From Halorubrum sp. CBA1229 (lineage in GTDB: Archaea > Halobacteriota > Halobacteria > Halobacteriales > Haloferacaceae): a stretch of 64,000 nt of DNA. How positions within the stretch are numbered: position 1 is the stretch's first letter; every line of letters begins with the position of its first letter. The stretch is from positions 868,001 through 932,000 of the forward strand of contig NZ_CP054585.1 in assembly GCF_003721435.2 (NCBI RefSeq), written 5' to 3'. Shown here piece by piece: positions 1,738 through 32,950 of the stretch. The position numbers and the translations under genes are program-made. Below the pieces are notes generated by a model. The model saw only the letters and a list, made by a program, of their open reading frames with translations. It made no database searches and was not told where the DNA came from.

Positions 1738-1836
1738 TACGTTTTCGAGAGCGTAGCCGGTTCCAGCGCCGTCCGATCGCTTATAAACAAACGGCTGCGA
1801 ATCGGCGGTGAATACCGTCAAAGCCTCGGGCGATCA

Positions 1837-1852: not shown

Positions 1853-2237
1853 GCGGTGGCGCGTGCCTCCGAGCGGTCGCCCTCGGCGACCGCGAGGAGC
1901 GCGCGCGAGGGACGCGGCGAACGCGAGCGGCGAAGCCGCGAGCCGTGAGCCGCGAGGCTGGGGAGGCGTGAGGTGCGGTCGCTGTGCGGTTGGGTGGGAC
2001 TCAAAGGGGCAGTCGCGAGGACGAAGCACGGCGACGCAAGCAGCGTGGCGCTACGCGCCACGGGCAGCCGGCGGCGGAGCCGCCGGCGACACCGCAAGGA
2101 GCGAGTGGAACGAGCGACTGAGGAGCGCAGCGAGCCGCGCGAGTCGTCGCGACTGGGGCTTTGGAGGAGTTCACCGCAGAGTTGTCGATCACGTACCGCC
2201 GAGCGGCTGGGGCTTTGGCGGTGTTCTCCGTCGATCC
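1853..2237 (+). ncRNA. Five-copy structured element, copy A (candidate non-coding RNA)
   Basis: A gene-free stretch that matches four other loci in the window. From 5' to 3' it holds: (1) hairpin P1, outer arms 1859-1865 and 1900-1906, CTCC 1867-1870 with GGAG 1896-1899, and a 9-bp inner stem 1873-1881/1885-1893; (2) box GAGGCTGGGGAGGCGTGAGG at 1954; (3) box GGGACTCAAAGGGGC at 1996-2010; (4) a stem CAGTCGCGA (2010-2018) with TCGCGACTG (2147-2155), enclosing perfect hairpins with 3-base loops such as GCCGGCGGC-gga-GCCGCCGGC; (5) box CTGGGGCTTTGG at 2153-2164. The last box plus tail is partly duplicated at 2207-2237. Short frames here are arginine-rich and not conserved as protein. The RNA call is inferred from covariation among copies; the family name, if one exists, is unknown to me. 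Confidence 0.6.
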
Positions 2238-14510: not shown

Positions 14511-14830
14511 GCGGTGGCGCGTGCCTCCGAGCGCCCGCAGGGCGCGAGGAGCACGCGCGAGGGAGTCGGCGGTCCGGAGCAACGCGGAGGACCGCCGACA
14601 GGGCGAGAGCGAAGCTCTCGCTTGCAACCGGCGCTACGCGCCGGTGACGAGGCTGGGGAGGCGTGAGGTGCGGGGCGGTTGCGGGCGGGTGGGACTCAAA
14701 GGGGCAGCCGCGAGGATGGCGCAGACGACGCAAGCACCGCAACGAGAGAGCGCCAGCGACCAAGTGAGGAGCGCAGCGAGTGTGCGCCATCCTCGCGGCT
14801 GGGGCTTTGACGGTGTTCACCGTCGATCCG
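14511..14830 (+). ncRNA. Five-copy structured element, copy B (candidate non-coding RNA)
   Basis: Fills the divergent intergenic region between the phosphoribosyltransferase and gatB. P1 hairpin: GCGCGTG (14517-14523) with CACGCGC (14552-14558), CTCC with GGAG, inner stem 14531-14535/14541-14545. Internal perfect hairpins are GAGAGC-gaa-GCTCTC and ACCGGCGC-tac-GCGCCGGT. Box GAGGCTGGGGAGGCGTGAGG starts at 14649 and box GGGACTCAAAGGGGC is 14691-14705. The long stem is a perfect 19 bp: CAGCCGCGAGGATGGCGCA (14705-14723) with 14783-14801. Box GGGGCTTTG is 14801-14809 and the terminal palindrome GGTGTTCACC 14812-14821. This copy has no clear TATA box upstream. Confidence 0.6.
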
Positions 14831-23094: not shown

Positions 23095-23403
23095 GCAGTG
23101 GCGCGCCCCGGTGAGCGGCCTACTGGGCCGCTCACCGACGGTGCGAGGGAGTCGGTGGTCCGGAGCAACGCGGAGGACCGCCGACAGGGCGAGAGCGAAG
23201 CTCTCGCTTGCAACCGGCGCTACGCGCCGGTGACGAGGCTGGGGAGGCGTGAGGTGCTGTGCGGTTGCGGTCGGGGGGGACTCAAAGGGGCGGCCGCGCT
23301 CGGCGAACCCCAGCGACGCAAGGACCGCAGGGAGCGGCGCGACCGAGGACCGCAGCGAGCTGTGGGAGCCGAGCGCGGCCGGGGCTTTGCAGGCGTTCGC
23401 CGC
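23095..23403 (+). ncRNA. Five-copy structured element, copy C (candidate non-coding RNA)
   Basis: Occupies the divergent gap before ubaA. P1 has a different sequence from the other copies but pairs fully: CGCGCC (23102-23107) with GGTGCG (23140-23145), and an 11-bp stem GGTGAGCGGCC (23110-23120) with 23126-23136. Internal hairpins GAGAGC-gaa-GCTCTC and ACCGGCGC-tac-GCGCCGGT are shared with copy B. Box GAGGCTGGGGAGGCGTGAGG starts at 23235 and GGGACTCAAAGGGGC is 23277-23291. The long stem is CGGCCGCGCTCGGC (23291-23304) with GCCGAGCGCGGCCG (23368-23381). Then come GGGGCTTTG and the terminal palindrome GGCGTTCGCC (23392-23401). The last differs from GGTGTTCACC of B and D by a compensating pair. 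Confidence 0.6.
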
Positions 23404-28971: not shown

Positions 28972-29650
28972 ATTGTTGTCCGCGGACGGTTGCGATTCAG
29001 CCGCGAGGCGGCCACATGTCGTCTCGTCCCGGGGGCGTCGACGGCGTTGACGAGCTCCGCTCGTCAGCCCACCAGACGCAGTCTGATGACGTCGACGGCG
29101 CCCCGGCGGCGAGTGCCCGCTGTGTCCGCAGCAGCGAGTTGTCCGTATTTCCCGCGGTTCGCCCTTAACCGCTTCGCTACGGCGTTCGCGTGGGGAGCGG
29201 TGGCACGCGGAGACGGCGGGGGCGCGTCATCGGTACCGATCGCGTCGACGCGGCGCGGCCGACATCGCGTCCCTGTGCGCCCGGCTTGCTCCTCCCTGTG
29301 CGTCCGGCTCACCCACCCGCCGCGTTTTTACCAGCGTCGAGCCCTATGACCGAACGGGCGCGGTCGGACACGTCACCGCCTCGGGTAGGGGGTCGTGTCC
29401 GGCCGCGCCGCATTTCCCCCGGACCGACGCTCCGCGCCGTCGGGGCGTCAACCGCGCCGCGATCCGACCCCAGAGGCACACGCCGCACGCCGGCGGTCCG
29501 CGATGCGGTCGGTCGACGGCGACGACGACGGACTTGTCAGCCGGCGATGACGACGAACCGATCAGCCGGCGACGACCTCGTCGCGTGAGATATTCTCGAG
29601 AGACTCTCCGAATAAGAACGCTCTTATCGGTCCGAGGTCGACGGAGCGGT
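28972..29650. other. Gene-poor intergenic region between L15e and the RHH gene
   Basis: No convincing gene in 679 bases; frames here are arginine-rich shadows, including 29347-29588. It contains perfect short hairpins TGACGAGC-tcc-GCTCGTCA (29048-29066) and CAGAC-gca-GTCTG (29073-29085), bracketed by two copies of cgtcgacggcg (29036-29046 and 29090-29100). These could belong to the L15e leader. A palindromic operator candidate lies at 29612-29627. Confidence 0.5.
29612..29627 (+). promoter_or_regulatory. Inverted repeat upstream of the RHH-transporter operon (candidate operator)
   Basis: ATAAGA-acgc-TCTTAT, a perfect 6-bp inverted repeat centred about 31 bases before the ATG at 29651, overlapping the likely TATA position. 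A TCTCGAGA palindrome lies at 29594-29601. Autoregulation by the RHH protein is inferred. Confidence 0.5.
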
Positions 29651-32547: not shown

Positions 32548-32557
32548 TTTATAAATA
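32548..32557 (+). promoter_or_regulatory. TATA-like box upstream of repeated element copy D
   Basis: TTTATAAATA, 19 bases before the conserved gtggcgcg of copy D and the best TATA match of the family. Another AT island (atttataaactatttata, 33007-33024) stands past the 3' end. Confidence 0.5.
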
Positions 32558-32564
32558 AACGGTG

Positions 32565-32950
32565 CGGTGGCGCGCGCCTGCGAGGCCGCATCGCGGCCGA
32601 GCAGCGCGCGCGAGGGACGCCGCGAGCGATGTGGGCGACCGCAGGGAGCCCCAAGCGAGCGGCGAGGCTGGGGAGGCGTGAGGCGCGGCTGCTGTGCGGG
32701 GCGGGACTCAAAGGGGCAGCCGTGAGCGGGACGCAGGAGTTCACGAGAGCAAAGCTCTCGTGAGCCAATCAGAACGCTTTGCGTTCTGATGACGACGAAA
32801 GGACCGCAAGGAGGGAGCGATAGCGACCGACTGAGGAGCGTGGTTCGAGACGCCTTCGGCGTCTCGTCATCACGAAAGGCGCAGAGCGCCTTTCGAACGA
32901 CAGCGAGCGTGCGTCCCGCTCACGGCTGGGGCTTTGCAGGTGTTCACCGA
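32565..32950 (+). ncRNA. Five-copy structured element, copy D (candidate non-coding RNA)
   Basis: P1: GCGCGCG (32570-32576) with CGCGCGC (32605-32611), CTGC (32578-32581) with GCAG (32601-32604), inner GGCCGC/GCGGCC. Copies A and B have CTCC/GGAG at the same place, a compensating change. Box GAGGCTGGGGAGGCGTGAGG is 32664-32683 and GGGACTCAAAGGGGC 32703-32717. The long stem is a perfect 19 bp: CAGCCGTGAGCGGGACGCA (32717-32735) with 32910-32928. Inside it lie four perfect hairpins with 3-base loops: ACGAGAGC-aaa-GCTCTCGT, CAGAACGC-ttt-GCGTTCTG, CGAGACGCC-ttc-GGCGTCTCG and GAAAGGCGC-aga-GCGCCTTTC. It ends with GGGGCTTTG and the palindrome GGTGTTCACC (32939-32948). Confidence 0.62.

Follow-up and report, generated by a model that had tools for sequence, protein, structure and literature searches.

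A modular, multi-copy family of putative structured non-coding RNAs in Halorubrum and other Halobacteria

Five copies of one element lie within the 64-kb stretch of Halorubrum sp. CBA1229 DNA analysed here (G000:C1:868001-932000, henceforth referred to as 'the window'), and a sequence-only reading of it had noticed that the hairpins of these copies tend to differ in both arms at once, as expected if evolution preserves base pairing rather than sequence. Does this pattern hold among the many copies of the element and, if so, which strand folds and what kind of element is it? The element is ~240-390 bp long and contains several helices; its copies in the window, and the anatomy of copy D, are as follows:

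1855-2175, + strand: copy A, whole element; cassette within P3
14513-14821, + strand: copy B, whole element; cassette 3' of P2, upstream TATA-like motif not found
23097-23401, + strand: copy C, whole element; cassette 3' of P2
32566-32948, + strand: copy D, whole element; two optional cassettes
50551-50314, - strand: copy E, whole element; 3' core ending in CTTTA
32548-32554, + strand: copy D, candidate TATA box TTTATAA, 18 nt upstream of the GGTGGCG start
32566-32609, + strand: P1 hairpin of copy D, compared across copies in the arm test
32570-32577 with 32604-32611, plus 32579-32581 with 32601-32603, + strand: P1 outer arm
32582-32583/32599-32600, + strand: G.A steps of P1
32584-32589 with 32593-32598, + strand: P1 inner stem
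32610-32617, + strand: conserved linker GCGAGGGA, its CGAGGG kept class-wide
32618-32663, + strand: P2 hairpin, its letters varying from copy to copy
32664-32683, + strand: conserved G-rich joiner GAGGCTGGGGAGGCGTGAGG, with TGGGG in 77 of 78 copies
32705-32717, + strand: core GACTCAAAGGGGC, its CAAAG (32709-32713) paired to CTTTG (32932-32936)
32718-32927, + strand: P3 long stem, including both optional cassettes
32739-32796, + strand: optional double-hairpin cassette T1, at a constant scaffold site
32842-32901, + strand: optional double-hairpin cassette T2, at a constant scaffold site
32926-32936, + strand: 3' core CTGGGGCTTTG, closing P3
32939-32948, + strand: terminal GGTGTTCACC, a sequence motif whose hairpin is unsupported by the arm test

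Within the core of copy D, GGG faces GGG and C32717 pairs with G32928. Many copies are followed on their 3' side by tandem units of ~57 bp (GAGCGGCTGGGGCTTTGGAGGTGTTCACCG-N-TTTATAA; window 2153-2229 and L335, L336, L037 and L134), the number of which varies among copies. Directly 5' of copy A, a fragment that resembles the terminal unit but lies on the reverse strand (window 1807-1829, - strand) gives the appearance of two units having met head to head.

Pairing was assessed by an arm test, in which the 5' arm of each helix was matched both to the 3' arm of the same copy and to those of other copies, the sample being all 78 copies with an exact core, extracted from this one genome. The proportion of standard pairs was 0.943 with own versus 0.718 with swapped arms in outer P1 (sd 0.021), 0.843 versus 0.529 in P2 (sd 0.023; register fixed on pairs 1-3, test run on pairs 4-9) and 0.962 versus 0.846 in P3 (sd 0.006), figures that are not formal probabilities because the copies share kinship. 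The inner P1 stem was picked because it pairs and is therefore excluded as independent evidence; as had been read, its sequence differs in all five copies of the window and is self-complementary in each. The sequence of the window also bears out the CTCC/GGAG of P1 in A and B against CTGC/GCAG in D, and the outer-arm pair that is T-G in A (1864/1901), T-A in B and C-G in D (32575/32606), although the T of B lies at 14523 rather than at 14522. RNAfold, run on three copies, gave P1, P2 and P3 with their G.A steps. It also suggested a closing stem between 5' GCGGTG and 3' CACCGC, which we rejected after the arm test (0.721 own versus 0.711 swapped).

The terminal palindrome behaved differently from P1-P3. 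B and D indeed carry GGTGTTCACC and C carries GGCGTTCGCC, the change of both bases of a pair from which conserved pairing had been proposed; A has GGAGTTCACC, with an A.A mismatch, and E has GGTGGTCACC. However, over 75 copies its pairs vary independently (0.822 own versus 0.831 swapped, sd 0.011), and a conserved terminal hairpin was rejected on this ground. Independent variation of paired positions, which the sequence-only reading had named as the outcome that would count against it, was thus found at the terminal palindrome and not in P1-P3, and the proposal that pairing is kept over sequence stands for these three helices. The two null results also serve as negative controls, indicating that the arm test creates no pairing by itself. 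Overall, it is well supported by these comparisons that the evolution of P1-P3 preserves structure.

Mispairs report on the strand that folds, since decay of a G-C pair gives either G.U or A.C and the two exchange roles on the opposite strand. Counted on the strand of the element, G.U exceeded A.C in P3 (86 versus 18, with one position giving 41 of the 86), in P2 (29 versus 5) and in inner P1 (11 versus 0), in 237 Halorubrum copies; in outer P1 the excess was weak (39:25) and partly due to register shifts. P2 further contained 145 G.A but only 4 C.T mispairs, and P3 of other genera 20 G.U against 6 A.C. An excess of G.U over A.C on the element strand favours this strand as the one that folds, most simply as RNA, and the mispairs thus point to an RNA fold of the element's own strand. 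Helices that covary on one strand, a feature of structured non-coding RNA genes, are seen in the element.

How the helices came to differ is, in part, another matter than had been proposed, as single compensatory substitutions give an incomplete account: copies and species also differ by the exchange, inversion or insertion of entire hairpins. At the locus of copy D, many Halorubrum species carry an element at the corresponding position, oriented alike but differing in its helices and optional parts, and in other Halorubrum species it is absent or reduced to remnants. Compared with a second genome (G292), the whole element is kept at 10 of 14 loci, with differences arranged domain by domain; one copy (L015) and its G292 counterpart, for example, share P3 and differ in P1 and P2. 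The alleles of the helices were also compared: none of 34 comparisons of copies with a common P1 allele also shared the P2 allele, none of 37 shared P2 and P3 alleles, and some linkage was seen between P1 and P3 (8 shared versus 2.4 expected). The optional double-hairpin cassettes are confined to fixed scaffold sites, and in several of them (L014, L021, L026, L035, L071 and L075) the loops, three bases long, come in reverse-complement pairs (AAA/TTT, GAA/TTC, GGA/TCC), as if the hairpins flipped in place. The interior of P3 is inverted in two copies found by script and in L124, found by eye; in L333 one arm has been altered so as to complement the other exactly; and deletions between short direct repeats are seen in L359 and L363 and, in G292, at the counterpart of L022. 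Module exchange, not stepwise compensation, accounts for much of the divergence among copies.

With hairpin exchange and mutation within palindromes both active, not all double changes are stepwise compensation, and arm correction as in L333, together with hairpin exchange, makes some of them possible without selection; among related copies, the two processes can mimic covariation. We therefore considered whether the coordinated changes are mainly mutational, with template switching in palindromes and gene conversion rewriting both arms under little structural selection. The rewritten arm of L333, the two inverted P3 interiors, the reverse-complement cassette loops and the exchange of modules would all fit such an origin. 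Strand-blind correction is, however, not expected to leave more G.U than A.C, the internal loop of GGG against GGG persists, as do the G.A and A.A steps, rather than having been corrected, and the single-stranded motifs are conserved class-wide, which makes a mainly mutational origin improbable. We favour a reading in which copies would diverge through the swapping of entire hairpins between them and through local mutation of hairpins, and selection for the fold of the element strand would act as the filter.

The surroundings of the copies were also compared. TTTATAA, a TATA-like motif, lies upstream of 66 of the 78 copies versus 2 of 312 control windows, at a spacing that varies from 13 to 49 nt. 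Core genes adjoin the copies (ScpA, phosphorylase, phosphoribosyltransferase, GatB, DUF5781, CNNM/CorC, RfcC and metallophosphoesterase) in an unremarkable arrangement, with 24 of the 78 copies between convergent genes and no striking preference, and the replication-strand bias is weak (p about 0.05, for the most favourable of many cut points). At L010/L268 a TnpB gene lies ~1.2 kb from the element copy, whose 5' end adjoins sequence common to other TnpB loci. The conserved neighbours of low-copy genomes were sought by tblastx, the output of which was too noisy.

On the 3.2-Mb replicon the core GACTCAAAGGGGC is found 78 times, and the second replicon has none, against an expectation of 7.9; further copies with a mutated core exist in the genome, the pattern of the 5' module counting 84. 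The exact core is present in 43 of 46 Halorubrum genomes, at 2-148 copies each, and outside the genus is found at no more than chance level. Plasmid matches in Halobaculum and Natrinema exposed a diverged form of the core, GGACTGAAAGGGGC, which is found in 214 of 391 Halobacteria genomes and 61 of 86 genera and is partnered by GGGGCTTTC in other genera and by GGGGCTTTG in Halorubrum. The pair closing P3 is C-G in 206 of 211 Halorubrum copies and G-C in 53 of 54 others, and the P3 arms of other genera again pair with their own partners (0.929 own versus 0.552 swapped, 54 sequences). The 5' module, CGAGGG-P2-GGYTGGGGAGG, occurs in 238 of the 391 genomes (56 of 86 sampled genera), at up to 189 copies, and its P2 frequently contains GAG-xAy-CGCAG, a motif of twofold symmetry present on both strands. 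Each of 35 sequences has standard pairing at x and y (four Watson-Crick types and one G.U), against a proportion of 0.428 after swapping, and an A.A lies between these pairs in 34 of them. Copy number ranges from 0 to 189 per genome and some genera are without the family, which is therefore not essential. Four IMG/VR matches, all in unrelated coding-like sequence, look like chance and no phage match was found, so that we rejected viral spread.

The modules also occur alone, as 3'-only forms, as inverted pairs ~47 bp apart in other genera (Halorubrum having mostly single copies) and as 5'-only forms at conserved loci. The latter were seen in one other genus (L384, L389, L394, L397, L399 and L401-L403; L387, L393, L395 and L396), some directly 3' of a radB-like gene, a putative radB judging by its translation, and others next to a gene whose C-terminal part is OB-fold-like; the TATA-like motif is absent at these loci. 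In several genomes of one genus (L294, L298, L304, L307 and L312), a long conserved stretch beginning with GGATGGGTGAAAGCCCGGCAGCGCAAC lies 5' of the 3' module and is possibly a second, larger RNA sharing that module.

The main rival to an RNA gene is a non-autonomous repeat of the REP/BIME or PATE kind, whose hairpins would serve propagation or recombination of DNA, the RNA fold being incidental. The element shares with REP, BIME and REPIN sequences an intergenic location, palindromes repeated tens to hundreds of times and a constant structure with variable sequence, and its copy number is high and variable. Back-to-back inverted pairs, seen in some genera whereas Halorubrum has mostly single copies, are a less clear-cut point of likeness. 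REPs, however, are short palindromes of 20-40 bp with a GTAG/GGAG-type foot (PMC3733652), ten times shorter than the element and lacking its multi-helix, two-module scaffold with strand-asymmetric mispairs. Moreover, no Y1_Tnp, the RAYT-type transposase, was detected in element-rich G006, G009, G011 and G292, which hold tens of copies each; CBA1229 itself has one Y1 transposase, adjoining a TnpB. PATEs are likewise non-coding, haloarchaeal and heterogeneous, with near-terminal palindromes resembling the ends of IS605-type transposons and with core deletions between direct repeats (PMC3119063), and the deletions in L359, L363 and at the L022 site of G292 are of this type. Going by that description of PATEs, the element differs in being stable at its loci, in a terminal palindrome without covariation and in its ends; IS605 ends, considered as a candidate, were not common to the elements and the TnpB loci of this genome. 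It also speaks against such a repeat that orthologous loci mostly hold the element in the same place and orientation, that the second replicon is free of copies and that the mispairs are strand-asymmetric. The hallmarks tested point mostly away from a repeat of this kind, to which we grant a real, if minor, chance of being the right explanation.

Haloarchaeal structured RNAs of another kind are the omegaRNAs or sotRNAs (RF02656 and RF02657; PMC12558985), and the 16 TnpB genes of this genome raised the question of whether the elements are solo omegaRNAs guiding TnpB proteins encoded elsewhere. Known omegaRNAs are associated with the 3' end of tnpB, whereas the elements stand alone, with neither a match to RF02656 or RF02657 nor an overlap with tnpB; their ends are absent from TnpB loci and their 3' flank consists of repeated tandem units instead of a unique guide, so that we regard this identity as very improbable. 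Against Rfam 15 the element matched no family, whether at the gathering score or with E-values as high as 5, the only matches in the window being tRNAs and the eL15-Euryarchaeota ribosomal protein leader (28989-29054, - strand; 36.8 bits versus a gathering score of 33.7). The words of the core returned nothing relevant from the open-access literature, although an earlier description in a subscription journal is possible; the element is thus absent from catalogued RNA families, its novelty being judged against Rfam 15 and open-access literature only. Conserved haloarchaeal intergenic RNAs with unassigned function have been reported from a halite metatranscriptome (PMC7002113).

Taken together, the comparative evidence makes it reasonably probable that the elements are a modular, multi-copy family of structured non-coding RNAs in which each copy is a small RNA gene with a putative transcript; the elements are probably RNA genes, and their function is likely exerted at the RNA level. 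The transcript would fold into a fixed scaffold of P1, CGAGGG linker, P2, G-rich joiner and G-rich core closing P3, built from a 5' and a 3' module that are each also found separately in other haloarchaea. In the helices pairing alone would be required, and linker, joiner and core, kept letter by letter, would be the likely contact surface for a common partner. The comparisons themselves show the fold, the strand asymmetry, the breadth of the family, the stability of its loci and the swapping of hairpins. Transcripts may start from the TTTATAA on the 5' side, and a protein partner and a regulatory role are likewise putative. Against an RNA gene weigh the variable spacing of the TATA-like motif and its absence at copy B, the variable copy number and the genera that are without the family, the kinship of the copies and the weak G.U excess of outer P1. 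More tentatively, we can imagine a Halobacteria-wide RNA family in which the G-rich core, which may form a G-quadruplex in molar KCl, combines with symmetric arrays of purine mismatches into a common protein-binding scaffold, the surrounding helices being freely exchanged between copies by cassette shuffling.

If the family is transcribed, few large structured RNA families of an archaeal class would be as numerous, and it is missing from Rfam 15. Its members are present in culturable genera, and with dozens to hundreds of natural variants in each genome the fold could be read directly. Its hairpins evolve by exchange of whole modules and by correction beside compensatory substitution, which bears on how covariation is to be read in repeat families.
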